From an uncultured Opitutia bacterium (GTDB taxonomy: Bacteria; Verrucomicrobiota; Verrucomicrobiia; Opitutales; Opitutaceae), in assembly GCA_903820035.1 (NCBI GenBank), contig CAIJFT010000004.1, positions 1 through 32,588 on the forward strand: 32,588 nucleotides of DNA, written 5' to 3'. The notes beneath the pieces are model-generated. The model was not told the origin of the DNA and ran no database searches. It saw only the letters and a program-made list of their open reading frames with translations. The translations under genes were made by a program, and so were the position numbers. Positions 691-19,808 of this stretch are shown piece by piece (position 1 is the stretch's first letter; every line of letters starts with the position of its first letter).

Positions 691-740
691 ATCTGAGCGT
701 ACCCCTTGCCTTCTCCCGGCGCTGCGGTAGCTCATTCGCC

Positions 741-2305: not shown

Positions 2306-2330
2306 TCCCCACCGCGCCAAGCGCGCCCCT

Positions 2331-2804
2331 TTGCCCACACGCGCAACAGTATTCCGCCACCCTGAAGTTTCCTTTAGTGAAACCGCCGGGCTGAGACGTC
2401 TCCGTTCGCTTGCCCTCGTTCTTGCCACGTCCTGTCACCGCCTTATCCGACGGTGCGCTTTCTCTTTCGCCGTGCTCATCGGCGCCGCGGCAGTGGCGAC
2501 CGAAGCGCCGCAGTGGTTCGATGTGCCCGCCGGCGATGCGACCGAAACACTCAAACTCGCAGCCCGCCAGGGCTGCCTTGAAATTGCTTTCTTCGCCGAG
2601 ACCGTGCGCGGCGTTCACACCGCGGCGCTCCGGGGCAACTTCGCACCGCATGAGGCCCTCAGCCGATTGGTGGCCGGCACCGACCTCGCCCTCATCGTCA
2701 ATGATCCATCCGGCACGCTCACTATTCGCCGCGCGGATCGTCGCGGCACCGCGCGCCAGACTCCACCCGACCAGCCGGCCCTACCCTCTCACTCTCCATC
2801 GCTC
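2331..2804 (+). other. STN signalling domain, in-frame 5' extension of the TonB receptor
   Basis: This stretch is open in the same frame as the receptor that follows. It encodes a hydrophobic signal-like segment (CAFSFAVLIGAAAVATEA), then an STN domain: FDVPAGDATETLKLAARQGCLEIAFFAETVRGVHTAALRGNF, then the LSRLVAGTDLALIVNDPSGTLTIRRAD strand ending. Known for FecA-type receptors: the periplasmic STN domain contacts FecR. No ATG exists in this frame after the FecR stop. Possible starts are TTG 2331 (25 bases after FecR) and CTG 2391; GTG 2472 would cut into the signal segment. No Shine-Dalgarno marks any of them. The segment ends at a second, complete signal peptide starting at ATG 2805, so it may be an extended receptor isoform, a released STN peptide, or a relic. 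Confidence 0.6.
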
Positions 2805-5800: not shown

Positions 5801-5951
5801 CCGCCTTTCGCTCAACGCGAGCGTGAACAACCTCTTCAACGAACCGCAGGTGGCGCTGCGCTACGGCTCGCAGACCCCCGCCTACGCGCGCCAGTTCAAC
5901 ACCCGCAACTTTGGCGCGATGCTGTCCCTCGGCGTCAAAGGCACGTTCTGA
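2805..5951 (+). CDS. TonB-dependent outer-membrane receptor with carboxypeptidase-like N-domain
   Basis: 1048 residues from the ATG at 2805, chosen because it starts a textbook signal peptide (MKSKRLL, hydrophobic core, cleavage after NPVHA). Residues about 37-115 form a CarboxypepD_reg-like beta domain (AVTGRVQNVVTGQYLNNARITVLGTD). A plug follows, with VGEFLKFIPGV, SIRGIGG, RIEVTKVPTPSTPADSLAGSVNMVSKSAFE, then a beta barrel ending FGAMLSLGVKGTF with the terminal Phe used for outer-membrane assembly. The architecture matches the TonB-Xanth-Caul/SusC-like receptors that import oligosaccharides or chelates. The frame is open upstream through an STN domain, which together with the preceding sigma/FecR pair argues for a FecA-like signalling receptor. 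It is followed after 5 bases by a secreted FAD oxidoreductase, presumably cotranscribed. The ligand cannot be told from sequence. Confidence 0.93.
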   Translation: MKSKRLLTILSGFLAAAFYPANPVHAADGPPAASRQTSAVTGRVQNVVTGQYLNNARITVLGTDLVAFTDATGTYRLAGVPAGRIELAVFYTNLDPQTIALVAAPGETIEHNVNLTSVARYGGDSHVVALKAFTVAADRETDAQAIANNEQRFAPNLKNVMSTDSLGDVFGSSVGEFLKFIPGVTANYDNASVVGISIRGIGGAMTSVYSDGAPMVSAGTSTNRSFDTNSMALNDVARIEVTKVPTPSTPADSLAGSVNMVSKSAFERSKAQLRYGLNLVGNGENLYLRKMPRAYDDRDVWKINPGVDFDFTLPVNKNFGLILTGLYTNRYNEQHISQMTFATSGTGASISRPYLQSHLAADDPRNEARKTLGFKADWRVTPHAVLSFSGQWNELVHSIGNNRLTPNVGAVAAPTPATGTPFSFGDDFTIGAAGRGSVTMSMTNQRYEQRLTAAKTNYRFDDGTWKIEASLSRSYSKILRRNTEHGHFHQVDATLIVPVRVSFLDIRPDNPGRAEVFNAANQRVDLTEVKNYQITTAVDQPLNRQLDVDAGNLNVRRRLNFLPVPFALQAGSSVGIQTIDTRNYTRNWTYNGPDGDPATPDSPAPYLMRAYVQQPTGYGYDDRLPWFSPRHVWSAFQNNPRLFTQTPAQLVAQEISRLGASEYLQEKVTAGYLQAETSLFRNRLKVLTGVRYEKTDDNGRGLRYDPNSVFARNADGTFARNAAGARIRRPEAGAANSLEEALLTRQERAYRAERTYDGFYPSLHLTYDLRENFLLRLAYAKTYGRPNFTDIIPNATINEADLTAAELADPTLIKGTITVRNTALRPWSADNYDLSLEYYTPQGGLFSGGVFVKEIRDFFGSEVRLATAADLDAAGLDPRYVGWNLSTKFNAGNARVSGVEFNIRQPLRGLGRWGSPFTIFANATRLRLEGNQMASFATFIPKSANWGASFSRKRITAVVRWNYRGLDQNAAVPAFGPDAFGYIKARTTLDLSSAYQLTSRLSLNASVNNLFNEPQVALRYGSQTPAYARQFNTRNFGAMLSLGVKGTF

Positions 5952-5956
5952 CCGGC

Positions 5957-7588
5957 ATGATGCGCACCGCTTCCCTCCTGTTCTACGGGTGCGGGTGCCT
6001 GCTCGCCGTGATCGCACGCGGGGCCACCGCGATCGAGACCTGCGACGTCGCCATCTACGGCGCAACCAGCAGCGGCGTGATTGCGGCAGTGCAGGCCGCC
6101 CGCATGGGAAAGTCCGTCGTGCTATTGGAGCCCGGCCGACACATGGGCGGAATGACCACGGGCGGCCTCGGCGCCACCGATACCGGCCGCGTGGAAGCCA
6201 TCGGCGGTTTGGCGCGCGAGTTTTACGAGCGCATCGCCCGAAAATACGACGACGACCGCTACTGGACCCACCAGAGCCGCGACCAATATATTCCACCGGG
6301 GCCCGCCAGCCGCGCCGCCGACCGCCGCGTGATGTGGACCTTCGAGCCCAAGGTCGCAGCGGAAGTCTTCGCCGACATGATGCGCGAGCAAGGAATCGCC
6401 GTGCGTTTCCGCGAGCGCCTCGTGCCGAAAATCGGCGTGACCAGGGAAGGCGGCCGCATCGTGGAACTTGTCCTCGAGAGCGGCGCGCGGATCCGCGCCA
6501 AGATGTTTATCGACGCCAGCTACGAAGGCGACCTGATGGCTTGGGCGGGTGTCGCCTACACCGTCGGCCGCGAATCGACCCAAGCCTACGGCGAGAGCCT
6601 CAACGGCATCTCGACCAAATACACCTACCGCCACGAGCGGAAAGACGAGATCGACGCCTACGTGATTGTCGGCGATCCGGCGAGCGGCCTGCTCCCCACG
6701 GTGGAGGCGCGGCGCATGACCGAGGGCGCGGCGGACCCGGGCATCATGGCCTCCTGCTTCCGGATGTGCCTCACCAACCAGCCGTCCAACCGGCTGCCAA
6801 TTGAAAAGCCGGCCGCCTACCAGGAGCAGCACTACGAGCTGCTCCTGCGTTCGATCGAGGCGGGGCGCACGGACAAGTTTTTCAACCTCCTTGCCATGCC
6901 CAACGGCAAGACGGACAGCAACTGCACCGAGCCGTTCTCCACGAACTTCGTCGGCATGAACCACGGTTATCCCGACGGCGACTACGCCGCGCGGGAAAAA
7001 ATCGTGACGGCGCACCGGAACTACCAACTCGGCTTCCTCTGGACCTTGCAACATCACCCGCGCGTGCCGGAGCTGGTGCGGCAGACGATGCTCGCCTGGG
7101 GCTTGCCGAAGGACGAATTCGCGGAGCACGGCAATTGGCCCCCTCAACTCTACATCCGCGAAGGCCGGCGCATGATCGGCGAACTCGTGATGCTTCAGCA
7201 GCATTGCGAGAAACTGCGGCCGGTGGCTGAACCCATCGGACTGGGCTCCTACACGATGGATTCGCACTACGTGAGCCGCTTCGCGGACGAGCGTGGCAAA
7301 GTTCGGCACGAGGGAAACTTCGACCGACACGTCAGCCCTTATGGCATCGGCTACCGCGCCCTCGTGCCCAAGGCCGACCAGTGCCGGAATCTACTCGTGT
7401 CTGTCTGTCTCTCCGCCTCCCACGTGGCCTATGGCTCCATTCGCATGGAACCCGTGTTCATGATTCTGGGCCAGTCAGCGGCCACCGCCGCCTGCCTCGC
7501 GATCGACGCTGATACGTCCGTGCAGCAACTGCCCTACGCCAGACTGCGCGACCGGCTCGTCGCGGACAAGCAGGTGCTGGAGTTCTAG
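5957..7588 (+). CDS. Secreted FAD-dependent oxidoreductase (FAD_oxidored type)
   Basis: 543 residues; ATG at 5957, with another Met at the next codon. Residues 1-25 are a Sec-like signal peptide ending ARGATA. The FAD-binding Rossmann start is CDVAIYGATSSGVIAAVQAARMGKSVVLLEP (loop G35-A-T-S-S-G40), followed by GRHMGGMTTGGLGATDTG. Later segments typical of the family include ARIRAKMFIDASYEGDLMAWAGV, ANWPPQLYIREGRRMIGE-like PQLYIREGRRMIG, and a C-terminal SASHVAYGSIRMEPVFMILGQSAATAA. The same blocks occur in the paralogue at 29095. The substrate is unknown; the position directly after the receptor suggests periplasmic oxidation of the imported ligand. No twin-arginine motif is present, although FAD proteins are usually exported folded. 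Confidence 0.88.
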   Translation: MMRTASLLFYGCGCLLAVIARGATAIETCDVAIYGATSSGVIAAVQAARMGKSVVLLEPGRHMGGMTTGGLGATDTGRVEAIGGLAREFYERIARKYDDDRYWTHQSRDQYIPPGPASRAADRRVMWTFEPKVAAEVFADMMREQGIAVRFRERLVPKIGVTREGGRIVELVLESGARIRAKMFIDASYEGDLMAWAGVAYTVGRESTQAYGESLNGISTKYTYRHERKDEIDAYVIVGDPASGLLPTVEARRMTEGAADPGIMASCFRMCLTNQPSNRLPIEKPAAYQEQHYELLLRSIEAGRTDKFFNLLAMPNGKTDSNCTEPFSTNFVGMNHGYPDGDYAAREKIVTAHRNYQLGFLWTLQHHPRVPELVRQTMLAWGLPKDEFAEHGNWPPQLYIREGRRMIGELVMLQQHCEKLRPVAEPIGLGSYTMDSHYVSRFADERGKVRHEGNFDRHVSPYGIGYRALVPKADQCRNLLVSVCLSASHVAYGSIRMEPVFMILGQSAATAACLAIDADTSVQQLPYARLRDRLVADKQVLEF

Positions 7589-7953: not shown

Positions 7954-9231
7954 TTATCGCCGCGCGGCCTGCCGCGCTTCCACCCGGAAACCCCAAACCA
8001 GCGCGGCAAACGCGGTGAGGTGCAGGGCGCCCAACGCCGTAAACACCGGCACATACCCGTACGCCGCGACCGCACGGCCCGTCAGCAGGTTCGACGCGAT
8101 CCCGCCGAGGCTTCCTCCCACGGCCGAAAGGGCGAGGAGCGTCGCGACATTCTCGCGGGAAACGCTCTCGGAGATCAACGTGAGTTGGTTCGCCATCCAG
8201 CAACTCTGCGCCGCCAGCAGCACCGCAATCAGGGCGATCGCCACCCAAGCGCTGTCCACCCGCACGGCCACGGCAGCCAGCGGCATCAGACAAGCCGCCA
8301 ACAACATGAGCGTTCGTCGGGCGCGCCCGGGATTCCAGCCACGACGAATCATCCAATCGGACAGCGCTCCGCCGCCCGGGCCTCCGAGATCAGACGCCAA
8401 AAACGGCAACCAACCCACGAGTCCGATCATCGCCAAAGTAAATCCCCGCGCGTGCGTGAGATAATCCGGCAGCCAAAAAGAGAAAAAATACGACGTGGAA
8501 TCGGTCAACAGGCGGGCGACAAAAAAGCCCACGCAGATCGGGTTGGCCATGAGCCGCCACATCGGAAGCTTGGCGGCGGGAGCAAGTCCGGGCGGGGTCC
8601 GAGCCGCGAGAATGTAGTCGCGCTCGGCGGACGTCAGGCGCGGATGCGACTCGGGCGTTTCGTACACGCGCCACCAAATCACGAGCAGCACCAAGCCCGA
8701 CGCTCCAGTGACGAGAAACGCCCAAGGCCAGCTCAGATGCAGGGCCAGAAATGAGACGAGTGGCGGCGCGATGATCGCACCGATCACGTTGCCGTTGGAG
8801 AACACCGCCATACAGAGTCCCCGTTCGCGGGGCGGTATCCACTCGGCGATGGCCTTCACTCCGGCCGGACTGTTGAAGCTTTCGCCCAGCCCGAGGAGAA
8901 AACGAAATGCCGCCAGCGACATCCAGCCCACCGCCATCGCGTGGCCGGCGCCGGCGATCGACCAGAACGCCAACGCCAGCGCGAGCCCCAGCTTTACCCC
9001 CAGGTGATCCAGCACCCGTCCACAGAACAGATAACCGAGTGTATAGGCCGCGAGAAACGCCGAGGTGATATACGAATACTCAATCGGCCCGAAGCCCATT
9101 TCCTTGCGCAAGGTCGGCGCCAGCACCGACAGTGTCTGCCGATCCAGATTATTGACCAGCGCCACGAAGAAAAGCAGCGCGACGATGAGCCAACGCTGGT
9201 GCTCGCGGACAAACTGGGCAATGCGGGGCAT
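7954..9231 (-). CDS. MFS transporter, hexuronate/anion:cation symporter type
   Basis: 425 residues from the ATG at 9231 (MPRIAQFVREHQRW); the frame extends to 9279, but those extra residues look non-coding. About twelve hydrophobic helices are visible. The first contains WLIVALLFFVALVNNLDRQTLSVLAPTL, the D-R-x-x-L-S-V pattern of the ACS family (ExuT-, GudP- and DgoT-like). LGLGESFNSPAGVKAIAEWIPPRERG and FLVTGASGLVLLVIWW are equally typical. The role would be inner-membrane import of a sugar acid by proton or sodium symport. It is the last gene of the aldolase/FAD/sialidase-like minus-strand run, 67 bases after the sialidase-like stop. The family is well supported; the substrate class is inferred from family and operon. 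Confidence 0.9.
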   Translation of the reverse strand: MPRIAQFVREHQRWLIVALLFFVALVNNLDRQTLSVLAPTLRKEMGFGPIEYSYITSAFLAAYTLGYLFCGRVLDHLGVKLGLALALAFWSIAGAGHAMAVGWMSLAAFRFLLGLGESFNSPAGVKAIAEWIPPRERGLCMAVFSNGNVIGAIIAPPLVSFLALHLSWPWAFLVTGASGLVLLVIWWRVYETPESHPRLTSAERDYILAARTPPGLAPAAKLPMWRLMANPICVGFFVARLLTDSTSYFFSFWLPDYLTHARGFTLAMIGLVGWLPFLASDLGGPGGGALSDWMIRRGWNPGRARRTLMLLAACLMPLAAVAVRVDSAWVAIALIAVLLAAQSCWMANQLTLISESVSRENVATLLALSAVGGSLGGIASNLLTGRAVAAYGYVPVFTALGALHLTAFAALVWGFRVEARQAARR

Positions 9232-9298
9232 GCGGGGGATTAAAGGCACGAGTCGGACCCGGCGGCAACCCGCGGGCAAAGACGCGCTCCGCAGGCAC

Positions 9299-11065
9299 TC
9301 ACCGGGCGCGCACGAGGTCGGCTTCGGTTACGCGGTAAGCCCGGATCGAATTGCGGGAAGGGCCCGTGGGCGCCGCGGCGCCGGGTGCACGGGCGTTGGT
9401 ATAATCAACGATCACAATCGTGCCGTCGGGCAGCTGCGTCCATGAACTGTAGCCGCAATCCGACGCCGGATACGCGTAGTCGAGCACCACCGTGCGGTTG
9501 CGGCGAAATTGATCCGGATAACCCTGCGCCGGCGTCCAGCGCCAGTCGATCGATGTGTCGCGCGCATCGTTGAGCACCTTGACCGACACTGCGCGCCAGT
9601 GGCTTACCGCCTGATTGAGCGGATAGGTCTCCCCGCCTCGCGGCACCGACCGATTCCCAAATCGCACCTCACGCACCCAGATGCCGTCCAACTTTTCCCG
9701 CAGCTTCTCGACGCCATCGGCGAAGATCACGACCTCGCCGCCGGCGCGCACGATGCGGTACCGATGCCAGCCGCGGGTGTCGAAGGCGAAGCCTGCCGCC
9801 GGCCGGCCGGCCAGCGAAATGCGATCGGTGGCAAAATTAATCCAGCATCCCGCGCTGATGGCCACGCCGTTGGCCTCCGCTTCATCGATTTTCAGGGTCG
9901 CCTCGAATTCGACGCGCGCGCGGTCATCCTGGGCCGGATACAGGTTAAGCTCCACGGCCCCGCGTCGACCGTCACCGGTCCGCAGGGTGAGGACCTCCGT
10001 CGTCAGGACGCATCGCGCCTCATCCGGGGCGTAGGAGGTAGGCTGAAATCCGATTCCCTCGTCCGCAGCGAAGACCAAGGCCCGGCTGCCGGGGGTGCCC
10101 CACACATTGCGGTAGGTGGCCAGCAGCCGGCCCGACTTCAGGCGCCCCACGTGCACGCGTTGCCCGTAGAACGGAGCCGGTTCTGCGCGCGGCCAGGTCC
10201 GGCCGTTGTCGTCGCTGTAGAGCAGTCGGCTCGGATGGCCAAAGCGCCCGTTGCCAAGTCCGATGCGGGAAGCGGCGAGCAACTTTCCCGGGCCCACTTC
10301 GGCGAGTCCCACCTCGCAATCACCATGAAACGGGCTGTCGGCCAACCAGGCCGTGCGCGGCCAACTCCGGCCCCGATCATCGGAAAATACGATCTCGTTA
10401 CGATAATAGATATCGTTCCACGGCGCCGGCGGGTTCTTCAGCTGATCCGTCTGCTTCGACGACGTACGCGTGAACGCGAGCGTGCCGTCCGCAAGTTCCA
10501 GCACATAGCCCGGCTCGCCTCCGACCGCATCAACCTTTTCACCCTCCGTCCAAGTCTGGCCGTCATCTGCACTCCAAAATATCCAGTTCGACATCCCCCG
10601 CGCCGGCTTTTGCCAGTCACTTAACATCGGCATGCTTTGACCGGCCGCGCGCTGCCCGCGATCACACACGATGACAATCCGGCCATCGCGCAGGACGCTC
10701 ATCTGCGGCACGACCCAGATTGCCTGGTGATCCCAAACATTGGCATGGGAAAGCGTCCGGTGCTCACCCCACGTCCGGCCCCCGTCACGAGATCGAGCGA
10801 CCATGATCCAGCTCGTCAAAGAGGTGTGCTGATCTGAGAGCTGCCAGCACGCCACCAGCGTGCCGTCCCTCGCGGCCACCACGTTGGCGCACTTGTAGTA
10901 CCACCCTTGCGGATTCGGATTATGTAGCCCGGAGTACTCGTCGCGCGTGACGGTGAACTTCGCCGAATCCGCCAGGACGAGGGAGTCGCGGTGGAACGGC
11001 GCGGCCGGCAGGGACCCGAGCAGCGTCAGGAACAACCAGGTGATGCGATTAACGTGCATGCGCAT
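9299..11065 (-). CDS. Secreted BNR/sialidase-fold protein with C-terminal extension
   Basis: 588 residues from the ATG at 11065 (starts at 11080 and 11059 are also possible), beginning with a signal peptide (NRITWLFLTLLGSLPAA). Four Asp-box motifs mark a six-bladed sialidase-type propeller: SRDGGRTW near residue 90, SADDGQTW near 164, SDDRGRSW near 227 and SDDNGRTW near 283. After residue about 370 comes a beta-rich, lectin-like insertion (VEFEATLKIDEAEANGVAISAG, GFAFDTRGWHRYRIVRAGGEVVIFADG). The chain ends with another propeller-like SSWTQLPDGTIVIVDYTN. Many such Verrucomicrobia proteins are named exo-alpha-sialidase (GH33) without proof of activity. It overlaps the 3' end of the FAD gene at 11049, indicating cotranscription. 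Confidence 0.85.
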   Translation of the reverse strand: MRMHVNRITWLFLTLLGSLPAAPFHRDSLVLADSAKFTVTRDEYSGLHNPNPQGWYYKCANVVAARDGTLVACWQLSDQHTSLTSWIMVARSRDGGRTWGEHRTLSHANVWDHQAIWVVPQMSVLRDGRIVIVCDRGQRAAGQSMPMLSDWQKPARGMSNWIFWSADDGQTWTEGEKVDAVGGEPGYVLELADGTLAFTRTSSKQTDQLKNPPAPWNDIYYRNEIVFSDDRGRSWPRTAWLADSPFHGDCEVGLAEVGPGKLLAASRIGLGNGRFGHPSRLLYSDDNGRTWPRAEPAPFYGQRVHVGRLKSGRLLATYRNVWGTPGSRALVFAADEGIGFQPTSYAPDEARCVLTTEVLTLRTGDGRRGAVELNLYPAQDDRARVEFEATLKIDEAEANGVAISAGCWINFATDRISLAGRPAAGFAFDTRGWHRYRIVRAGGEVVIFADGVEKLREKLDGIWVREVRFGNRSVPRGGETYPLNQAVSHWRAVSVKVLNDARDTSIDWRWTPAQGYPDQFRRNRTVVLDYAYPASDCGYSSWTQLPDGTIVIVDYTNARAPGAAAPTGPSRNSIRAYRVTEADLVRAR

Positions 11066-12674
11066 GGGGATCGCCGTCATCGAGGGTGAGATTTTCCGGC
11101 CAAGTCAGCTCGACTCCGCGGGCCTTCAGCCGCTCCTGGAGGGCGGCGAGTCGCTCCGGACTGGCGTGGACCGTGCGCGGCGCTTCCCCGGATTCAAGGC
11201 AGTGGACACACAGTGCACCTGCAGCTTCCCCGATATTCCACTCCACCGGGTGCAGCCGGTAGCAACCGTTCGTCAGGTGAGTGGTGCCGATGTTCTTGGC
11301 CGCCGGCAGGACATTTTCGAAGCGGACCGGAATCAGCGCCCCCAGCGGTATCCGGAACGGCAGCGACGGCACGTCGATGTAATTGTCGCCGCCCGTCGAG
11401 GGGTGAAGGTCGATTCGGTAGTAACCGATGCCGACCGAATCGGGGTAACGCTCCGCCAGCGTCTCACCCGGACGAAACGTGGCGGATACGTCGCGTTCGA
11501 CGACCGTTTTTATGGCGCGGATTCGGCGTGACTCGCGGATGTAGGGCGCCATCGCAAGCCCGTCGGTGGTGCCAAGCAGATCGCCGCGCAGGCGCAGGCC
11601 CGGCCATCCCACCCCTCCGTCCGACCGCGGCGCCTCCGTTTGCAGCCAGTGGACCATTGAGAGACTGAGCTGCTTGGCGTCAGCCAGACGCGCGGCCCGG
11701 GTCGCATCGTCACAGGTCAGCAAATCGCCCTCCATGTAGTCGATCATCGGCCAGTTCACGAGGCATACGTCGCTCGCGTAGGCCCCGGGCTCAAATTGCG
11801 CCCGGTCGATAATACGCCGAAACGCCCACAACCCCGAAAACAGGCCGGGCTTTTCCCCATGCGGAGCGAAGTTGTAACGCATCGCCTCCATGGTGCGCGG
11901 ATTCAGCCCGGCCCAACCCAGCAGCGGTCCCGGCCACGCGGGTTGCAGCTTCGGCACATAACTCCGCCAGAAATCGTAACGCTCCGGACGCGGAATGACG
12001 TGGGATTCCCCCGCGCGCTCCTCGAGGACGAAACAGACTGAAAACGACTGGATGTTCGCCGGTGCCGCTCGATCCGGCGCACTCGCCTCCCCGGTGTCGG
12101 CCCGCGACTCGGCGCCGGTAACGTACTCCACCCCCGCCAAGGGCAAAAGGTCCCCGTTTTCGGTGGCGTCGAGAAAATACCGGGCGCGCAAGACACCGTC
12201 GTCGCCCCCGCGAAGGTCGCGCACCACCACCGCCGCAAGGCGATCCGCCCCGTCCGCGCGAACCGCAACGACCCGATGCTGACGCATGATTTGCACGCGG
12301 CCGCTGGAAACATGCGGGGCGAGCATCGCTTCGAGTACCGCTAGCGCGACGCGCGGTTCGTGGCACAAAGGGGACACCCAACCGTTGCCCGGATTCAGGC
12401 GCGGATTGGCGCGCACCGCCGGCAGCAGCGGATAGTGCGCCCGATAGTAAGCGCGCACTCCGTCCCGAAATCGCCGGTAGCTCCGCGTGCAGCCAAACTG
12501 TTCGATCCAACCGTGTTCGTCCGGCGGGACCGCTTGGGAGGTTAGTTGGCCGCCGATCCACGCAAACTCTTCGGTCAGCAACACGCTCCGCCCGGCCTCC
12601 GCCAGCGCCAGTGCGGCCGCACAACCGCCCACCCCTCCCCCAATCACGACCACATCAGCAACCAGCTCTTTCAT
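11049..12674 (-). CDS. Cytoplasmic FAD-dependent oxidoreductase
   Basis: 541 residues with no signal peptide. MKELVADVVVIGGGVGGCAAALALAEAGRSVLL is a canonical FAD dinucleotide fold (G12-x-G-x-x-G17), followed by the EFAWIGGQLTSQ block of the FAD_oxidored family. Further family blocks: RARYFLDATENGDLLPLAGVEYVTG, APYIRESRRIRAIKTVVERD and the C-terminal KNIGTTHLTNGCYRLHPVEWNIGEAAGALC. Its N-terminus differs from the two secreted paralogues at 5957 and 29095, so the product stays in the cytoplasm. It follows the aldolase by 98 bases and its stop overlaps the sialidase-like start. The likely role is oxidation of a sugar or sugar acid ahead of the aldolase step; this is inference from position. Confidence 0.88.
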   Translation of the reverse strand: MKELVADVVVIGGGVGGCAAALALAEAGRSVLLTEEFAWIGGQLTSQAVPPDEHGWIEQFGCTRSYRRFRDGVRAYYRAHYPLLPAVRANPRLNPGNGWVSPLCHEPRVALAVLEAMLAPHVSSGRVQIMRQHRVVAVRADGADRLAAVVVRDLRGGDDGVLRARYFLDATENGDLLPLAGVEYVTGAESRADTGEASAPDRAAPANIQSFSVCFVLEERAGESHVIPRPERYDFWRSYVPKLQPAWPGPLLGWAGLNPRTMEAMRYNFAPHGEKPGLFSGLWAFRRIIDRAQFEPGAYASDVCLVNWPMIDYMEGDLLTCDDATRAARLADAKQLSLSMVHWLQTEAPRSDGGVGWPGLRLRGDLLGTTDGLAMAPYIRESRRIRAIKTVVERDVSATFRPGETLAERYPDSVGIGYYRIDLHPSTGGDNYIDVPSLPFRIPLGALIPVRFENVLPAAKNIGTTHLTNGCYRLHPVEWNIGEAAGALCVHCLESGEAPRTVHASPERLAALQERLKARGVELTWPENLTLDDGDPHAHAR

Positions 12675-12772: not shown

Positions 12773-13582
12773 TTACGCCTGCTGGGGGAACGTCTTCAGC
12801 AACTCCCGCACGCCGAGTTGCATCACCTTGACGTCACCCCCGGCGCAAATCAGGCGGGCGCCCAAGCCATAAACCCGCGCGAACATGTCGGGACCAATGG
12901 CCAGCGTGCCCCACCATTTGCCCGCGGCCTTCGCGGCCTGCCCCACCGCGGCCGTCGCCGCGCGCACCGTCTCATGGTCAATTTGCCCGGGCAGCCCCAT
13001 CGCAACCGAATAGTCGCCTGGGCCAAAAAATAGTCCGTCAACCCCCGGCACCGCCGCAATCGCCGCCGCCGCGGCCACCGCGGCCTCGGTCTCGATCTGG
13101 CAGATGATCATCGTTTGGGTATTCTGGTGGCGAATGTAGTCGGCCGCCGGCAGCGTCGCGTACGCCGCGTCGATATTTCCCCCGTTCCAGCCGCGGGCAC
13201 CGGTGACCTCGCCCGGCACGGGCTTCGGGTTGTTGAACTTCGCCCACTGGACAATCTGGCGCGCCTCGTCGGCCGAGTTGACCATCGCACACATGATCCC
13301 GCCCACTCCGGTCTCTAGGATGCGCATGACGGTCTGGTAGTCGGTGGCCTTGAGCCGCGCGATGGTACTCACCGGAAACCCCCGCGCCACGAGATTCAAT
13401 ACCGCCACCTCACGCGTCGGCAGATCAAAGTGCTCCAAATCCAGCCAGATCGCATCGAAGGCACCGGTACGGCAGATGAAGTCGACATGACGCGGCGTCG
13501 TAAAATTGCCGGTGACGTACAACTTGACCAACTCGTCGGCCTTAAGTTTTGCCAGAGCAGGATTGGGCGGGAGAGGATTCAT
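12773..13582 (-). CDS. HpcH/HpaI-family class II aldolase
   Basis: 269 residues from ATG 13582 (MNPLPPNPALAKLK). The catalytic set is complete and spaced as in E. coli HpaI: His51 in DAIWLDLEHFD, Arg76 in STIARLK (25 later), metal ligands Glu164 in CQIETEAAV and Asp190 in FFGPGDYSVAMG (26 later). Known chemistry: metal-dependent retro-aldol cleavage of 2-keto-3-deoxy sugar acids or 4-hydroxy-2-oxo acids to pyruvate plus an aldehyde. It is the first gene of a minus-strand operon with an FAD oxidoreductase, a sialidase-fold enzyme and a sugar-acid-type transporter, and is divergent from a GntR-type regulator 143 bases away. The in-frame extension to 13615 adds a poor N-terminus. The exact substrate is not determinable. 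Confidence 0.93.
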   Translation of the reverse strand: MNPLPPNPALAKLKADELVKLYVTGNFTTPRHVDFICRTGAFDAIWLDLEHFDLPTREVAVLNLVARGFPVSTIARLKATDYQTVMRILETGVGGIMCAMVNSADEARQIVQWAKFNNPKPVPGEVTGARGWNGGNIDAAYATLPAADYIRHQNTQTMIICQIETEAAVAAAAAIAAVPGVDGLFFGPGDYSVAMGLPGQIDHETVRAATAAVGQAAKAAGKWWGTLAIGPDMFARVYGLGARLICAGGDVKVMQLGVRELLKTFPQQA

Positions 13583-13647
13583 GGAACAGTAGGCCGGGAC
13601 GGCTCCGCGAGGCAACCGCGCGCCGCGCCCGGCGCCAATCCCGGACT

Positions 13648-13667
13648 AGTGGTCTCCTCCGGGAACC
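13648..13667. promoter_or_regulatory. Candidate operator A for the GntR-type regulator
   Basis: AGTGGTCTCCTCCGGGAACC, in the divergent promoter between the aldolase and the regulator. The core GGTCTCC-TCC-GGGAACC is an imperfect palindrome (GGT-N11-ACC). It shares 14 of 20 positions with the site at 18331 and GTGGTCTCC exactly with the site at 19651. The function as an operator is inferred. Confidence 0.45.
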
Positions 13668-13725
13668 GCTGGACGCCAGATCACCGTTGCCAACCGGGAC
13701 GGGCGCCTCCTCGCTGGGCACGACG

Positions 13726-14823
13726 ATGCCATTGAAATTCCAGTCGATCGCCGAGCAGGTGGCCGGGGCGATCCGCACGGAGATGGAAAACCGCACCTGG
13801 GGCCGGCTATTGCCGGGCGAACGGCAATTGGCCGAACAGTTCCACGTCAGCCGCAAAACGGTGCGCAAGGCCCTGGTTGAACTGCGGGCCGCCGGTGTCC
13901 TGCAGACCGAGCGGGGACGCGGCTCGCAACCGTCGCCCCGACGCGGCACCCGGCGCGAGCCGAGTCCACGTATCGCCCTTCTCCTGCCGGAACCGCTGGA
14001 GGGCTCGCGGCCCTTCACCGCCCTGTGGGTAAACCACTTGATGAGTCTACTGCAGGATGCCGGCCGGCCCCTGCAGATTTTTCACGGCGCCCAGTACTAC
14101 GGCGCCAACGCGGCCCGGGCGCTCGCGCGGCTCACCTCCGCGCACTCCGCCCGCTGCTGGATCGTCGCCCGGTCCAATCACACCGTGCAACAGTGGTTTG
14201 CCGCGAGCGGGCAGCCGGCCCTGATCTGTGGCTCAGCCCACCCCGGCGTGGCGCTGCCGAGCGTCGACGTCGATCATCGGGCCCTCTGCCGCCACAGCGC
14301 CGCGCTCTTCCTGCGCCAAGGCCACCGGCGTCTCGCGCTCTTCCTTGAACACGGTGGCCACGGCGGCGATGTCGAAAGTGAAAAGGGATTCCGCGAAGGC
14401 CTGCGCTCGACCCCGGGGGCCGCCGCCCCCCTGGTTTGCACGCCCGAGCGCAACGCCGCCTCGATCATGCGTGAACTCCGCCGCCTACTCAACCGGAAGG
14501 AGCCGCCCACCGGCCTGCTCCTTTCCAACTCCTACTCCTATCTCACGGTGCTCAGCTATCTCGGCGCCCTCGGCCGGCACGTGCCGCGGGATATGTCCAT
14601 CGTCTCGCGTGACGAGGAAACATTTCTGCGCTTCCTGCACCCCACGCCGACTTATTACTCCACACGCCCCGCCAAGTTCGCCCGTGCTTTGCATCAGGCG
14701 CTCAAGCGGATTTTGGACGGTGACCGGACCCCTTTCACGATCCGTATCATGCCCGACCTTGTGCAAGGGGAGTCGGTTGGACCAACCGCCAGCAAACGGG
14801 TTCAAGCAGCGCCGCGGCACTGA
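13726..14823 (+). CDS. Transcriptional regulator, GntR-type HTH with LacI-like effector domain
   Basis: 365 residues from ATG 13726; the frame is open back to 13549 but similarity starts at MPLKFQSIAEQVAGAIRTEM. Residues about 5-70 are a GntR winged helix: LLPGERQLAEQFHVSRKTVRKALVELRAAGVLQTERGRGSQ. Residues about 83-350 look like a periplasmic-binding-protein/LacI effector domain (RIALLLPEPLEG, ARCWIVARSNHTVQQWF, VDHRALCRHSAALFLRQGHRRLALF, PTGLLLSNSYSYLTVLSYLGALGRHVPRDMSIVSRDEE). This architecture is the AraR-like class of sugar-sensing repressors. It is divergent from the aldolase operon, which it presumably controls. Related operator-like sites upstream of the TonB receptor (18331) and the sialidase-like gene (19651) suggest a wider regulon. 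Confidence 0.9.
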   Translation: MPLKFQSIAEQVAGAIRTEMENRTWGRLLPGERQLAEQFHVSRKTVRKALVELRAAGVLQTERGRGSQPSPRRGTRREPSPRIALLLPEPLEGSRPFTALWVNHLMSLLQDAGRPLQIFHGAQYYGANAARALARLTSAHSARCWIVARSNHTVQQWFAASGQPALICGSAHPGVALPSVDVDHRALCRHSAALFLRQGHRRLALFLEHGGHGGDVESEKGFREGLRSTPGAAAPLVCTPERNAASIMRELRRLLNRKEPPTGLLLSNSYSYLTVLSYLGALGRHVPRDMSIVSRDEETFLRFLHPTPTYYSTRPAKFARALHQALKRILDGDRTPFTIRIMPDLVQGESVGPTASKRVQAAPRH

Positions 14824-14865
14824 CACGGACTCAGGCCGGTGAGCGTCAGGGACTCAGTGTTGGGA

Positions 14866-14904
14866 TAAAAAAAGGCGGCTGGGCGATTGCAGGTCCTTTC
14901 GCCC
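14866..14904 (-). terminator. Candidate rho-independent terminator after the TonB receptor
   Basis: On the minus strand GGGCGA and TCGCCC form a 6-bp stem with a 12-base loop, followed after 7 bases by seven T residues (A run at 14867-14873). It lies 220 bases beyond the receptor stop at 15124. The gene-free stretch 14824-15123 also holds an inverted repeat CACTGA/TCAGTG (14818-14823 and 14854-14859) that could end the regulator transcript, and a heptad repeat at 14927. I see no convincing gene in it. Confidence 0.4.
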
Positions 14905-14926
14905 GGGGCCTCCGCTCGGATTGTTC

Positions 14927-14954
14927 GCGCAACCCGCAACGCTCAACCTTCAAC
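14927..14954. repeat. Four degenerate 7-base direct repeats (NNNCAAC)
   Basis: The units are GCGCAAC, CCGCAAC, GCTCAAC and CTTCAAC, contiguous and in phase. The array is immediately followed by CGGGA-TGA-TCCCG, a small perfect hairpin (14955-14967). It lies in the convergent intergenic region between the regulator and TonB receptor genes. The role is unknown. Confidence 0.45.
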
Positions 14955-15123
14955 GGGATGATCCCGCTCAGGCCCGGCCACGCCTTCGCCTCCGGCGCAA
15001 ACGAAGCAACGAGAACGGTTGATCCGCCATAAACCAAGGCGCCACCGACTGGGCCCGGAGCAGGAACGCCGCCCTCAAAGTCGGATCAGGTGCTTGATTA
15101 CGCCGGTCCAGTCCACCGCCGGG

Positions 15124-18100
15124 TCAGAACGAACCCTTCACCCCCAAGGTGATTGTCGCACCGAGTTCCTGATACCGTTGCGGCTTGGCGTACGAGGGCG
15201 TGTTCGGCGCGTAACGCAGCGTGGTGGGGTTGAAGCCCCCGTTGAGGTCCGTCATCGCCCCGAAGACCGCGAGGCGTTTCGTCAGGCTGTACTGACCACT
15301 GACGCCCCAGCGGCGGCGAGCATCCTGATAGTTGTAGGTGCCAGCGGGAATCGTCGCACTGGCGCCGACCGCCCCGCGCTGGGTCTCCCCTTGGTACGTG
15401 CAAGTCAGTTTGAGGAAGTAACGCGGTCGGATGAAGTTGATGCCCCCCGCGTAGGCGCTCGGGTTGAACCCCGTGAAATCGGCCGTCGTGCTTCCCGAAA
15501 GCGTCATCTTCGTGCCGTTGATAAAAATCTGCAACCCCCTCGCCCACGAGGGCAGGAACGTGAGCGATTGCCGGTAATTAAATTCCACGCCCGTAATCTT
15601 CGCGTCGCCCGAGTTGGTCGTGGTCACGATCTCATAGCCGAGAAAAGCAGGGTCATTCGGCAGGCCGTAGAGGTCCAGCAACTCGGGCGTCGCCGGACTG
15701 CGGACCGAGCCGAAAAAGTTCCGGATGTTCTTTTGGAAGACGCCGACCGAGCCGAAGCCGTCCTTGAGGTGATAGGACTCGACCGTGAAGTCGTAACTGT
15801 CAGCCGTCCACGGCTTCAGGCCGGAGTTGGTTACCGTGATGGTCGGGCTGGCGATTGTCGGCTCGCTGAAGGTGGCGCTGGGCACGACCGACGTGACATT
15901 CGGCCGGCCGATGGTACGGGCGTAGGCTCCGCGCAGCACCAGATTTTCCGATAGACTGAAGGTCGCGTTCACACTGGGGTAGTAGCCGCTATAGTCTCGG
16001 CGCGCATGGGTGCCGCGCTCGACATAGCGCTGCTTCGCCCGCGCAAGGAGATCATTGGTTAGAAAAATCGGCTGCACCCCCGCCAACGCCGGATTGCCGT
16101 CTACCACGCGACCGGCGGCGTCTTTCTGATACTGGGCCGAGGGGTCACTCTTCGCTCCCCAGCCCTCGTCTTCCGTCTGCTCTAATCGCACGCCCGACAC
16201 CAGCCACAGCCGGTTCCGGAACAGCCGGATGTCGGAACGCAGGTAAGCCGCGGAAACCGTCTCGATCATCCGGCGGGAATTCGCGACGAAGTTCTGGTGC
16301 GCCAGCGGCTCGTCCAACACGAACCAGCCCGGCTGTTGCTGGTAAAGTTGGTAGAGCTTAGCGACGCTGATCCAACGCATGCGCTGGCCATAAACCGCTG
16401 GCGCATCCCGGTTGAACTCATCGTCAAACACCGGAAAACCTCCCGCCAGCCGCGAGGTCACATCACTGGCGCCATTGGGGCGGAAGTTCCACGTCTTCAG
16501 GAAACGGTGGTTGTCGCGATCCGTGCGGTCCACCAGGGCCCCGACCTTCAGTGCCGATGTGACCGGCCAGGAAAAGTCCCGGGTGAAATCCAGCCGCCCG
16601 CCGAACTTCTCCGCGGCATAGTCGTTCTGCTGGGTCGTCGTGCTGGCGATGGCATAGTTGCCGCCCTGGAAGATATCGACCGGCGCCCCGGTGCGGGTCG
16701 TGGCCGAGTAAACCGTGGGGATGATGCCGCTCGCAGCCGGGATCCCATCGCCGCGGACGATCAGGCTATCGATGGATGTCACCACCGTGTTGAAGTGACC
16801 GCGATCAATGTCGAGCCACTGCGACCCGGCCCGCGACCAACTGAGGCCGCTCTCGATTCGCCACCGGTCATGCCGGTGCGAATACCGCAGATTGGCCTGC
16901 GTCGTCTGGGTCAGGATATCCTGATTATTTCCGTTACCCTGGGCCACGCTGCCGACGCCAGAGCCGGCCCCCTGGGAAAATGTCTGCCCGCCCGTCGCGC
17001 CGGCCCCGTAATTCGCCGTGAAAATACTCCGCGTGATGTAGCTGTCGGATTCACGGTACTGAATCCCCGCGGACAATGTGTCCCGCGCGCTGAGGCGCCA
17101 GTCGACCCCGACCTGCCCGGACGTAGTCGTGAGGATCTGCGCCAGGCTCTGCCAGTCGCTCGACTGCATCACGCCCCGCACCAGATCCCAGTTGGCCGTT
17201 TCATCCGAATCCTTGCCGCGTTCCATCGGCTTTTGGCGCCACGTACGGGAACCACCGACGCTGAAGGCCACATTGCGATTCACCGGGTGCAGGTAGCTGA
17301 AACTAAACGACGGCTGCACAAAGTCAGGACTCAGTGCATCGACGTGATTGCGCGGCCCGCCGTCCAGCGTGAGCCCGCTGCGACTGTGGAGGATCTGAGA
17401 TAATTGGTAGGCGAAGGCCGGCCGCTTGCTCTCAAAGCCGCCCTTGCTGATGATGTTCAGCGAGCCGCCGAGACCGCTAGCTGGCATGTCCGGCGTCGGC
17501 ACCTTGGTGACTTCAACTCGCGAAACGTTGCTCATGGGCACCTCCAAAAGCGAAAGCGCGCGGGTATCGCCACCGCGGGCCCCCATGACATCGCCCCCGT
17601 CGATGGTCACACTCGAAGTCGTCGCCGGAAAGCCACGCAGCGTGACCTCGTTCGGTACCTGTCCCGAGTCGTTAAGGGCCACGCCGGGAAGAAAGCGGAG
17701 GAACTCGCCGATGTTTTCATCGCCGCGGTCGCCGTACTCGTCGATGGCGACGACGCTCTTGATGTTCGGAGCGTAGCGTTGCTCGTTCATCGCAATCGCC
17801 TGAGCGCTCATCTCGCGATCGGCCACCACGGTGAACTCCTGCAGCTTGATCGTCTCTCCCGCCACCCGCGGCGCGCCGACCACGGTCAAATCGAAATCCT
17901 GCAGCACCACGCCGCCGGCTATCACACTCACCGTTGCCCGCTGGCCCTCAAACCCGAGATAGGCGACGCCGAGCTGCACCACCCCGGGCGCCACGCCGGT
18001 CAACTGGTAAATCCCGGCCTTGTCCGTCAGCACCTCGCGCGACGCGCTTTCGATGTAAACCCGTGCGTTCGCCAGCGCGGCCCCACTCGTGGCGTTGAAA

Positions 18101-18234
18101 ACACGACCTTCAATCAAGCCCGGTGTCTGGCCCCAAGCCAGCCCCCGGGTCAGCGCGGTCCCGACCAGAATCAGGGTCAGGGCAAACCAACGGTTGGAAC
18201 CAACCAAAGCAGTCACAGGTGCGGAGGTATTCAT
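15124..18234 (-). CDS. TonB-dependent outer-membrane receptor, no STN domain
   Basis: 1036 residues from ATG 18234. The signal peptide runs to about residue 36 (FALTLILVGTALTRGLAWGQ). A CarboxypepD_reg-like domain lies at about 38-115 (GLIEGRVFNATSGAALANARVYIES). The plug contains IGEFLRFLPGVALNDSG, VTLRGFPATTSSVTIDGG and RVEVTKVPTPDMPASGLGGSLNIISKGGFES. The barrel ends GATITLGVKGSF with terminal Phe. It is a paralogue of the receptor at 2805, with matching plug blocks (QAIAMNEQRYAPNIKSVV against QAIANNEQRFAPNLKNVM), but lacks an STN segment and a neighbouring sigma/FecR pair, so it should be a transport-only receptor. A sialidase-like gene lies 171 bases upstream on the same strand. Operator-like sequence at 18331 links it to the GntR-type regulator. 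Confidence 0.93.
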   Translation of the reverse strand: MNTSAPVTALVGSNRWFALTLILVGTALTRGLAWGQTPGLIEGRVFNATSGAALANARVYIESASREVLTDKAGIYQLTGVAPGVVQLGVAYLGFEGQRATVSVIAGGVVLQDFDLTVVGAPRVAGETIKLQEFTVVADREMSAQAIAMNEQRYAPNIKSVVAIDEYGDRGDENIGEFLRFLPGVALNDSGQVPNEVTLRGFPATTSSVTIDGGDVMGARGGDTRALSLLEVPMSNVSRVEVTKVPTPDMPASGLGGSLNIISKGGFESKRPAFAYQLSQILHSRSGLTLDGGPRNHVDALSPDFVQPSFSFSYLHPVNRNVAFSVGGSRTWRQKPMERGKDSDETANWDLVRGVMQSSDWQSLAQILTTTSGQVGVDWRLSARDTLSAGIQYRESDSYITRSIFTANYGAGATGGQTFSQGAGSGVGSVAQGNGNNQDILTQTTQANLRYSHRHDRWRIESGLSWSRAGSQWLDIDRGHFNTVVTSIDSLIVRGDGIPAASGIIPTVYSATTRTGAPVDIFQGGNYAIASTTTQQNDYAAEKFGGRLDFTRDFSWPVTSALKVGALVDRTDRDNHRFLKTWNFRPNGASDVTSRLAGGFPVFDDEFNRDAPAVYGQRMRWISVAKLYQLYQQQPGWFVLDEPLAHQNFVANSRRMIETVSAAYLRSDIRLFRNRLWLVSGVRLEQTEDEGWGAKSDPSAQYQKDAAGRVVDGNPALAGVQPIFLTNDLLARAKQRYVERGTHARRDYSGYYPSVNATFSLSENLVLRGAYARTIGRPNVTSVVPSATFSEPTIASPTITVTNSGLKPWTADSYDFTVESYHLKDGFGSVGVFQKNIRNFFGSVRSPATPELLDLYGLPNDPAFLGYEIVTTTNSGDAKITGVEFNYRQSLTFLPSWARGLQIFINGTKMTLSGSTTADFTGFNPSAYAGGINFIRPRYFLKLTCTYQGETQRGAVGASATIPAGTYNYQDARRRWGVSGQYSLTKRLAVFGAMTDLNGGFNPTTLRYAPNTPSYAKPQRYQELGATITLGVKGSF

Positions 18235-18268
18235 GGGGTACGAGACGGGGGGATTTCCAATCCATCAC

Positions 18269-18304
18269 CTGCCGGGGGTGACAGTTTTTTGCAGTGTCCG
18301 GCAG
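18269..18304. promoter_or_regulatory. Inverted repeat in TonB-receptor leader
   Basis: CTGCCGG (18269-18275) and CCGGCAG (18298-18304) form a perfect 7-bp inverted repeat around a 22-base centre. The centre contains GACA-N11-TGTC and a run of six T residues. It lies 34 bases upstream of the receptor start, so it would sit in the mRNA leader or over the promoter. The function is not known. Confidence 0.3.
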
Positions 18305-18330
18305 CCCTGCGCGACTTCCGAACAAATACG

Positions 18331-18350
18331 AGTGGTTTCCTTAAGAGACC
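18331..18350. promoter_or_regulatory. Candidate operator B upstream of the TonB receptor
   Basis: AGTGGTTTCCTTAAGAGACC; the 17-base core GGTTTCCT-T-AAGAGACC is a palindrome at 6 of 8 paired positions. Its first half matches operator A at 13648 at 10 of 11 bases. It is centred about 105 bases upstream of the receptor start. Regulator binding is inference. Confidence 0.45.
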
Positions 18351-18405
18351 GGTCCTGGGCGAGCTTGAGCCCCGTCCCGCCGCATCCCGGCGGCGGTCGA
18401 AATCG

Positions 18406-19605
18406 CTAGTCGCCGCCCGATTTCCGGCCCGCCGCGAGACGGTCGGTTTCACTCAACTGAAAGCGGGTACTCACCACGGAGTTTTTTTCCGATCCCTCGC
18501 GGTACTTGATGTAGGTAGTCGCGACGAATGTGCCGTCCGGCAGCAACTCGAGGCCGGGATAGCCGTTGTCGCCCCCCTTGAAACTGTGCAGCAGCTTCAC
18601 GCGGTACTGACCGTCACGCCCGCCGACGATGTCCGCGTAACGCCCCACCCACGCGACAAAATGGGTCGAGGTCGGGCTGCCGTAAGTACCGCCGGTGTCG
18701 CGCATGCACACGACCAGCCGGCCGTCGGCGGCATAACGTGCGGTATGCCGGTCACCCCACAGCCCGGGCGGCAGCGGACGCGTCGGCGACCAGGTGCGCC
18801 CTTCATCGTCGCTCGTGATGAACTGAGCCACCCGCTTCTCGTTCTCCCGCAGCAGCGCAAGCAGCTGAGTCCCGTCGGGCGACCGCAAGACCCATGGTTC
18901 GCAGGGCTTCAGGCCGGGCAAATCCAGAATAACGCGCCACGGCGCCCATGTGAGACCGCCATCGGATGATGTGCTTTGCACGATGACATTGGAGCGCACC
19001 TCCTTCGTTTCCCCGGGGCGACGGATATTCGTCAAGCCGAGCAATCTTTTTCCGCCATCGATCGGCTCGATGCTGCACAACGGCATCACGCATTCCAAGC
19101 CGGTGCTCGCCATCGGAGACCACGTGCGACCTTCGTCCAGCGAGTGCGACTGATGCATGGCCCCGTCCGCCCCCTGCCCCGCGTAAACCACAAGCCGCGC
19201 GGTCCCAGCCGGATCAACCAGCCGAAAAATCGCCGGGCAATTCTTCACGGTCCGCCAACTCGCCGGCACCGGTAGCAGCTCGCCCCACGTGCGACCGCCA
19301 TCGTCGCTGCGCTTCATGGGACCGCAGAACCCTCCATGATTGAGGGTCCACACACAGTAGATCGTTTTTCCGTCCGGCAGGAGCGCGGTGGTGGGATGGC
19401 CTTGGTAAGTTTCCGCTGTGCCCTGCGCGATGACCACCTGACGCGCCATGTCGCGCGACAAATCCACGGTCGACGGAAAAGTCGCGCGCGGCGCGGTCGC
19501 CCGAACCGGCAACGCCGCCGGATCAGCTGTCCAAGCCTGCAGGACCGTCAAGAACAAGAGCGTGGCGAACCGCGTCTGTCGCCGCAGCGTAACCGGGGTA
19601 ATCAT
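18406..19605 (-). CDS. Secreted BNR/sialidase-fold protein
   Basis: 399 residues from ATG 19605 (MITPVTLRRQTRFATLLFLTVLQAWTADP, a signal peptide). The open frame extends far upstream to 20271, but that part is antisense to the metallophosphoesterase gene and was discarded. Four Asp boxes are present: SDDGGRTW near residue 98, SLDEGRTW near 154, SSDGGLTW near 211 and SDDEGRTW near 263. HPTTALLPDGKTIYCVWTLNHGG precedes the first, and GDNGYPGLELLPDGTFVATTYIKY forms the last blade. The length equals a bare sialidase propeller (BNR_2), shorter than the enzyme at 9299. The predicted periplasmic product would trim a glycan for the receptor encoded downstream. Activity on sialic acid itself is not shown by sequence. 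Confidence 0.87.
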   Translation of the reverse strand: MITPVTLRRQTRFATLLFLTVLQAWTADPAALPVRATAPRATFPSTVDLSRDMARQVVIAQGTAETYQGHPTTALLPDGKTIYCVWTLNHGGFCGPMKRSDDGGRTWGELLPVPASWRTVKNCPAIFRLVDPAGTARLVVYAGQGADGAMHQSHSLDEGRTWSPMASTGLECVMPLCSIEPIDGGKRLLGLTNIRRPGETKEVRSNVIVQSTSSDGGLTWAPWRVILDLPGLKPCEPWVLRSPDGTQLLALLRENEKRVAQFITSDDEGRTWSPTRPLPPGLWGDRHTARYAADGRLVVCMRDTGGTYGSPTSTHFVAWVGRYADIVGGRDGQYRVKLLHSFKGGDNGYPGLELLPDGTFVATTYIKYREGSEKNSVVSTRFQLSETDRLAAGRKSGGD

Positions 19606-19649
19606 CTTCCCGACATTGGCTCCTCTCTCCGCCGCGACAAGCCGCGCGC

Positions 19650-19681
19650 CGTGGTCTCCGGAGGGGTCCGGGGTAGACCAC
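19650..19681. promoter_or_regulatory. Candidate operator C with long inverted repeat
   Basis: CGTGGTCTCCGGAGGGGTCC shares GTGGTCTCC with operator A and a similar right half (15 of 21 positions with the extended site). In addition GTGGTCT (19651-19657) is inverted as AGACCAC (19675-19681), a perfect 7-bp pair 17 bases apart. The site is 45 bases upstream of the sialidase-like start at 19605. Confidence 0.45.
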
Positions 19682-19808
19682 GCGGTGCGGACAGCGTGGC
19701 TCGGTTCCATTGACCCTATGGTTGGGAGTGTCTGCGCATGGAGTTCGGGCCCATGCGGACAAGTCAGACCTCCGCCCACCGCAGGGCAGGCCGTGGGCCG
19801 ATCCCACG

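Follow-up and report, generated by a model that had tools for sequence, protein, structure and literature searches.

Do three similar palindromes, found in a 32,588-nucleotide stretch of DNA from an uncultured Opitutia bacterium of the Opitutaceae (GCA_903820035.1, contig CAIJFT010000004.1, positions 1 to 32,588, here called the window), tie one regulator to a set of genes, and if they do, in which way are these genes controlled? A preliminary description of the window had proposed that they are operators linking a GntR-type regulator (13726..14823, plus strand) to an aldolase operon, a TonB-dependent receptor gene and a sialidase-like gene. As judged from sequence comparisons, the palindromes are quite probably operators of this regulator, which would be an activator of a regulon for a 2-keto-3-deoxy sugar acid.

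The three sequences were located as written at 13648, 18331 and 19650. Direct reading shows that the first two are identical at 14 of 20 bases, as had been claimed, and that the first and third both contain GTGGTCTCC. All three are intergenic, with no strand of their own. Operator 1 (13649..13669, centre 13659; 26.4 bits) lies in the divergent region between the aldolase operon and the regulator (13583-13725), operator 2 (18332..18352, centre 18342; 22.3 bits) in the region 18235-18405, 108 bp upstream of the TonB receptor start, and operator 3 (19651..19671, centre 19661; 17.6 bits, the weakest of the three) 56 bp before the start of a BNR_2 gene at 19605. These scores come from a six-site matrix made of operator 1 and the sites of five regulator orthologs, so operator 1 is part of the training set. 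Site 3 also lies within a larger inverted repeat, CGTGGTCT...AGACCACG, at 19650-19657 and 19675-19682, which may provide a third half-site. The motif refined from 34 sites is a 21-bp palindrome, YGGTYYCC-N3-GGRRACCR, longer and with a looser centre than the GGTYTCC-N3-RGRRACC of the preliminary description. It agrees with the general GntR operator form NyGTNxACNy, since column 5 is G and column 6 is T in 67 of 68 half-site readings each, and in the consensus of the 34 sites GT and AC are 11 nt apart. When up to two mismatches to the earlier pattern are allowed and each strand is counted separately, 13 matches occur in the window where 2.98 would be expected, and none of 100 shuffles reached 13. 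That the three-site observation is real and beyond chance is confirmed.

The own genome of the bacterium (6,048,463 bases in 469 contigs, 6.05 Mb) was scanned in two ways, with genes called by a simple codon model trained on ten window genes. The earlier pattern has two exact places in this genome, both inside the window, which is partly circular because the pattern was drawn from them. When up to one mismatch was allowed, in the scan that the preliminary description had suggested, 20 distinct places were found, and all three in the window are intergenic while 14 of the 17 elsewhere lie inside called genes. The non-circular scan relied on an external profile of 34 of the 45 non-own sites from 23 regions of relatives, the more regular ones, picked by eye, and 150 of 2436 first-look candidates were scored. 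At E<=10 it returned five rows, which are four distinct places, and three of them are operators 1-3. The E-values are 0.04 and 0.6 for the two strands of operator 1, 0.46 for C356:2362, 1.2 for operator 3 and 1.9 for operator 2; the place C356:2362, inside a called gene, ranks second, above operators 2 and 3, and these two operators are individually not significant against the whole genome. Ranking the upstream regions of single regulators de novo for palindromes gave noise too high to find operators alone.

Conservation in relatives was examined next to this, with bit thresholds (12.1, 12.7, 13.5 and 13.7) that were fixed after the scores were seen. Of 57 genomes surveyed, five carry a regulator ortholog (59-76% identity), each with a near-match palindrome whose centre lies 54-106 bp before the start of the regulator. 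In G018 (regulator identity 76%) all three promoters that have a site in the window, those of the aldolase/regulator region, the TonB receptor and the BNR gene, have one too, and there is one site more. The 23 regions (574 kb, 87% coding) include some chosen because they hold a site, so the count is enriched by design; the six-site matrix picks out 49 sites in them that score 13.5 bits or higher, and despite the high coding share 48 are intergenic. The single exception lies 150 bp before the start of a TonB receptor gene of the type behind operator 2 (TBDR2), in an overlapping opposite gene whose start was probably called too long. In these regions a site was found at eight of ten called TBDR2-type genes and, counting sites that score at least 14 bits and lie no more than about 350 bp upstream, at five of nine called genes of the type behind operator 3 (BNR2), own genes included in both counts. 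A larger survey of 252 family genomes gave 33 aldolase orthologs in 29 genomes; upstream of 25 of these genes lies a canonical site scoring 12.1 bits or more, and the eight without one are in G011, G205, G266, G268 (C22), G269, G091 (third copy), G031 and G229. When the external profile was applied to 12 other genomes the regulon sites were recovered, together with some places outside the regulon. One regulon spanning uptake, trimming, transport and aldol cleavage, as previously suggested, is supported by the conserved sites in relatives, by the gene-versus-intergenic scan and by the tracking of helix and site described below.

In two relatives many operators are clustered, several before BNR-type and unlabelled genes (G148:C13, L164/L165, and G091:C1, L166/L167/L208); the G148 cluster packs nine operators scoring 13.5 bits or more into about 27 kb. 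In another, an operator-led TonB receptor gene (L064 13022-16218, G023:C44 174022-177218) reads as two adjacent frames, plug and barrel, and so looks interrupted.

A feature absent from the preliminary description is the fixed distance between the operators and a promoter-like element. The first base of a TTG triplet lies precisely 21 bp away from the centre of the operator (+21) in 32 of 68 gene-facing sides of the 49 sites, against 2 of 30 other sides, and at other positions of the gene-facing sides it occurs on average 1.0 times and at most 8 times per position. T stands at +49 in 38 of the 68 sides. By gene, TTG at +21 was found in 13 of 15 aldolase, 5 of 5 BNR2 and 3 of 3 TBDR1-like promoters, and 19 of 45 sides carry it when aldolase and regulator genes are excluded. 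The upstream regions of fourteen previously unseen aldolase genes from the 252-genome survey served as a hold-out; in eight of them a canonical site reaches 12.7 bits or more, and each of the eight has TTG at +21. With the variant and alternative palindromes described below included, it stands at 14 of 15 hold-out places; it is missing from the more distant of the two G266 palindromes, which matches the alternative pattern better. Among control sites TTG was found at +21 in 0 of 44 coding and 2 of 24 intergenic sides. Operator and TTG joined in a single pattern gave 29 matches in the 252 genomes and one for the reversed pattern; repeats from overlapping loci were removed, and one operator each in G119 and G091, with TTG on both sides, is counted twice. 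Thirteen of these matches come from the set in which the rule was discovered and 16 from outside it. Two, in G226 and G116, lie in coding sequence, and the other 27 are intergenic. The combined pattern matches the own genome exactly once, at the aldolase promoter; it finds one of the three operators and misses sites that deviate from the consensus.

The TTG can be read as the start of a -35 element, and the T at +49 as the final base of a -10 element separated from it by a 17-bp spacer, so that transcription would start about 57 bp from the operator centre. On the minus strand of the window we predict a -35, TTGGCG (13633..13638), for the aldolase operon, starting at +21 from the centre of operator 1 and followed after a 17-bp spacer by a weak -10, TTGCCT (13610..13615, +44 to +49); a -35-like TCGGAA (18316..18321) at +21 from operator 2 for the TonB receptor gene; and a -35, TTGTCG (19635..19640), at +21 from operator 3 for the BNR_2 gene. 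The predicted -10 elements are poor, which is expected for promoters that need help; of the 32 TTG promoters, 16 have T at +44 and 22 have it at +49. Three own-genome candidates were set aside. The palindrome C230:866 (L083, 855-877; 22.0 bits) has no TTG at +21, is absent from the external-profile rows and is doubtful as a fourth member; it precedes an MFS gene and then a BNR_2 gene, and a DHDPS-family gene ends just upstream. The intergenic places on C337 and C163 (15.0 and 15.4 bits) have no TTG at +21 either. On the regulator side of the divergent regions of G000 (the own genome), G018, G022, G023 and G013 a further common element, TTGGCAA/TTGCCAA, was noticed; its distance from the operator varies, with its TTG at +22 to +65.

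The regulator itself has 365 amino acids, with a GntR winged helix-turn-helix (PF00392, E 8e-13) at residues 9-66 and a LacI-type sensor, Peripla_BP_3 (PF13377, E 2e-19), at residues 194-351. Both are the domains expected of the AraR subfamily, and the protein is a GntR/LacI chimera of AraR architecture. The solved relatives of the sensor domain are LacI-type regulators, and a profile of eight orthologs matches CcpA structures. The label "GntR-type" of the preliminary description was correct for the DNA-binding part and missed the sensor. The recognition helix reads RKTVRKA, and 16 of the 44 regulators of this kind share the helix [SG]RKT[VIL]R[KR]A; a site scoring 13.7 bits or more lies within 6 kb of 15 of the 16, in comparison with 4 of the 28 others, and the 16 occupy at least two parts of the tree. 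Near 27 of the 28 non-RKT regulators, palindromes presented ten gene-facing sides, none with TTG at +21, and the fixed-spacing rule is not shown to extend to the wider paralog family.

Among the hold-out aldolases the recognition helix tracks the operator beside them. Where a complete RKT-type regulator stands beside the aldolase (n=8), the aldolase is preceded by a canonical site in six cases and by a variant with GGCCTCC halves, TGGCCTCC-N3-GGAG[GT]CCA, in the remaining two (G011 and G205, helix RKTVRK[AS]I, ending in KAI or KSI). Two further canonical sites are those of G186, where the regulator is cut before the helix, and of G024, with no regulator in the stretch examined. Beside regulators with the helix SRRTLTAA (G266, G268 C22 and G269) no canonical site was found before the aldolase in any of three cases, and the matches of 13.6 and 14.1 bits inside genes of G266 and G269 were not counted as operators. 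Before these three, and before the third copy of G091 (SRRTLSAA), stands another palindrome, CYGGNNTCAWWWTGANNCCRG, which keeps the 21-bp frame and is matched with 0-1 mismatch; the pattern was drawn up with those upstream regions already in view, and a one-mismatch match to it is also present inside a window gene.

In the AraR consensus GT and AC are 4 nt apart and here they are 11 nt apart, so in this respect the operator is unlike that of AraR. The DNA-binding domain of CcpA is of LacI type, and CcpA is a global regulator, unlike the window regulator, which is a local GntR-type binder. The architecture resembles that of AraR of B. subtilis, described as a GntR-type winged helix with a GalR/LacI-type sensor that controls genes of sugar uptake and breakdown (PMC4494728, PMC4218819); one operator given for AraR is ATACATACGTACAAAT. 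AraR represses, whereas the operator position here suggests activation. The likeness to CcpA at ackA-type promoters is in the LacI-type sensor fold and in operators upstream of the -35, which in the account of PMC3463425 accompany activation. As a GntR regulator of sialic acid use, E. coli NanR (PMC8012715) is similar in role, but it is given as binding GGTATA repeats (PMC8012715) and as a member of the FadR subfamily (PMC4494728), while the window system has a LacI-type sensor, a palindrome and an HpcH/HpaI aldolase. FadR- and HutC-subfamily motifs (NyGTNxACNy) are likewise palindromes with outer GT...AC, but according to PMC4494728 the two are typically separated by 3 nt in FadR motifs (by 2 nt in certain groups) and by 4 nt in HutC motifs; YtrA motifs are described there as longer, with GT and AC far from the centre. 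The AraR-subfamily architecture is known, the operator spacing differs, and the TTG at 21 bp with the T at +49 is new. Among titles and abstract openings of the open-licence part of PubMed Central no published description of this regulon in Opitutaceae or Verrucomicrobiota was found.

The genes behind the operators lie on the minus strand. An HpcH/HpaI-family aldolase (12773..13582, 269 amino acids; PF03328, 88.7 bits against a cut-off of 25) is followed by an FAD-dependent oxidoreductase, FADox2 (11049..12674, PF12831), a BNR_2/sialidase-like protein, BNR1 (9299..11080, 593 amino acids), and an MFS transporter (7954..9279, start possibly 9231) whose best model is a D-galactonate transporter, below the curated cut-off. 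Inner-membrane transport is included in the proposed regulon because the MFS gene is the last of this tight series behind site 1. Operator 2 precedes the TonB-dependent receptor TBDR2 (15124..18234, 1036 amino acids, with a carboxypeptidase-regulatory-like domain) and operator 3 precedes BNR2 (18406..19605, 399 amino acids), a BNR_2 sialidase-fold protein. Its predicted fold, which bears on whether it could be a true exo-sialidase (GH33), is a sialidase-type propeller (mean pLDDT, the predicted local distance difference test, 87.3) with an uncharacterised protein as best match, then sialidases; these match at TMq of about 0.5-0.6, a GH93 arabinofuranosidase is matched as well, and sequence matches are weak. 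At the alignment position which we take to be the Arg-Ile-Pro of sialidases, 17 aligned BNR2 sequences read GHP in 13, AHP in 2, GQP in 1 and GHV in 1. The aldolase scores 99-106 bits with HpaI- and GarL-type models and 73 with the RhmA type, and none of the four equivalog models reaches its cut-off. In G018, G022 and G013 a NanM-type gene (PF24996, above cut-off), not present in the window operon, stands beside FADox2 in the aldolase operon; the best solved match of these NANM-family proteins is YjhT, the NanM of E. coli. Genes of the DHDPS family, to which NanA-type lyases belong, were found in the G025 cluster and on contig C230 of the own genome, and the conserved aldolase of the regulon is instead of the HpcH/HpaI type. 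The clusters of relatives also carry sodium:solute symporters, and a GDSL esterase alongside the DHDPS-family gene. The regulon targets look unlike arabinose genes. The regulon probably serves the use of a 2-keto-3-deoxy acid of sialic type, as far as gene content indicates; the parts are consistent with such an acid being set free by sialidase-type enzymes and, after mutarotation and import, cleaved to give pyruvate, and no part fixes the substrate.

The mechanism that we propose is that a dimer of the regulator binds the YGGTYYCC-N3-GGRRACCR palindrome and, when bound to its ligand, would activate by touching RNA polymerase, with the operator centre near -57. Operator 1 would serve the aldolase-FADox2-BNR1-MFS operon and also precedes the regulator gene, operator 2 would serve the TonB receptor and operator 3 the BNR2 gene. 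The products would form one route, from outer-membrane uptake through trimming by sialidase-fold proteins and import to the oxidation of a 2-keto-3-deoxy sugar acid, sialic or ulosonic in type, and its splitting by the aldolase. Activation is most likely because the operator centre is fixed 21 bp from a -35-like element and the -10 elements at the targets are weak; the regulon reading of the preliminary description was supported, and this pointer to activation had escaped it.

Several explanations compete with this mechanism. Practically no credence is left for chance similarity of the three matches in G+C-rich DNA, to which the 17 one-mismatch places elsewhere, mostly in genes, and the coding place that outranks sites 2 and 3 could point, as it is contradicted by the conservation in relatives, the held-out tests and the reversed-pattern control. 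Very unlikely too, in our opinion, is that the palindromes are real operators of some other regulator, global or paralogous. Such a regulator might be suspected from genomes such as G025, where the neighbouring regulator is only about 42% identical, and from the four of 28 non-RKT regulators that are also near a site, but exact sites cluster at this regulator (in G023 all three are on its contig), helix changes accompany operator changes beside orthologous aldolases, and the three full-length paralogs in the own genome have no RKT helix (a fourth, partial match, E 6e-4, was left out). A number of results weigh against operators of this regulator acting as proposed. Only two independent tree contrasts link helix and site, too few for significance, and relatedness is a possible cause of the association. 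Distant target homologs are mostly without a site, which was found at 7 of 24 BNR2-homolog loci (42-76% identical; at least 14 bits, no more than about 350 bp upstream) and at just 1 of 19 TBDR2-homolog loci (44-69% identical), and in the 23 regions none of six called regulator genes of a second clade (REG025) has a site directly upstream of itself. G031 and G229 have an aldolase ortholog with no site before it, and no regulator in the stretches examined. The external profile also matches outside the regulon in G031, G008, G017 and G018 (of those inspected, G018:C207 and one in G031 are inside genes and two in G031 are intergenic), and chance matches in genes score up to 21.7 bits among 22 coding control sites. 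As for the spacing, TBDR2 promoters have TTG at +21 in one of eight, with T in all eight and TCGG in four (window, G018, G088 and G024), and regulator promoters in none of eight, which implies that the regulator's own gene is probably controlled differently. The aldolase promoters are orthologous, so their common spacing is partly inherited.

The direction of control and the substrate leave more room. The same regulon and operator could belong to a repressor like AraR of B. subtilis, the operator, upstream of the -35, blocking polymerase or an activator until the ligand releases the protein. We consider this unlikely. Repressor sites require no single exact distance to the -35, and here +21 is kept across non-orthologous promoters, even with altered operator sequence, and the predicted -10 elements are weak. 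The domain architecture does equal that of AraR (PMC4494728, PMC4218819), and it counts against activation that B. subtilis AraR, with this architecture, is described with repression (PMC4218819). The account of CcpA in PMC3463425 can be used both ways, as this LacI-family protein can repress from upstream of a promoter, as at lev, while the rule given there is that cre boxes upstream of the -35 activate. A substrate other than a sialic- or ulosonic-type acid, namely a hexuronate- or galactonate-like sugar acid, is possible, if somewhat doubtful; Kdo-like ulosonic acids fall under the reading that we prefer. The MFS transporter best resembles D-galactonate transporters, the aldolase matches HpaI- and GarL-type models about equally (RhmA-type 73 bits), all far below cut-off, and the BNR2 fold also matches the GH93 enzyme, but the NANM-family proteins beside FADox2 in G018, G022 and G013, the DHDPS-family gene in the G025 cluster and the sialidase folds argue against it.

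Some observations stand apart from these questions. At 159-7588 the window has genes for an ECF-type (extracytoplasmic function) sigma factor, a FecR-like protein, a large TonB receptor with an STN domain and a PF12831 oxidoreductase, which together resemble another uptake system, distinct from the first; the highest-scoring operator-like match in this part has 10.9 bits and is within a gene. Inside this PF12831 gene, at 6821-6847, is a perfect 10-bp inverted repeat with a 7-bp loop, CAGGAGCAGC...GCTGCTCCTG, the only 10/10 arm pair in the inverted-repeat scan (gaps 0-11). On G031:C1, in the genome whose aldolase has no site, two intergenic palindromes (L206 8103 and L210 7427; 20.6 and 21.7 bits) have no TTG at +21.

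To our knowledge few regulons have been worked out in Verrucomicrobiota. The operator together with the +21 rule makes a low-noise genome pattern, with which target genes become predictable in uncultured genomes, and sialidase-like and TonB genes that are hard to assign gain a testable function. With helix and operator changing in parallel while the spacing stays the same, DNA specificity becomes open to direct tests. Three pairs were found, RKT[VIL]R[KR]A with GGTYYCC, RKTVRK[AS]I with GGCCTCC and RRTL[TS]AA with GGNNTCA, and we see about even chances that they belong to a modular activator platform in Opitutaceae, in which the chimera, an AraR-type activator of a sialic-type acid regulon, would sit at one place 21 bp from the -35 while helix and inner operator letters have changed together and the 21-bp frame and the spacing have stayed constant. 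If this is true, the platform would be a natural experiment in which DNA specificity shifts while the contact with RNA polymerase stays put.

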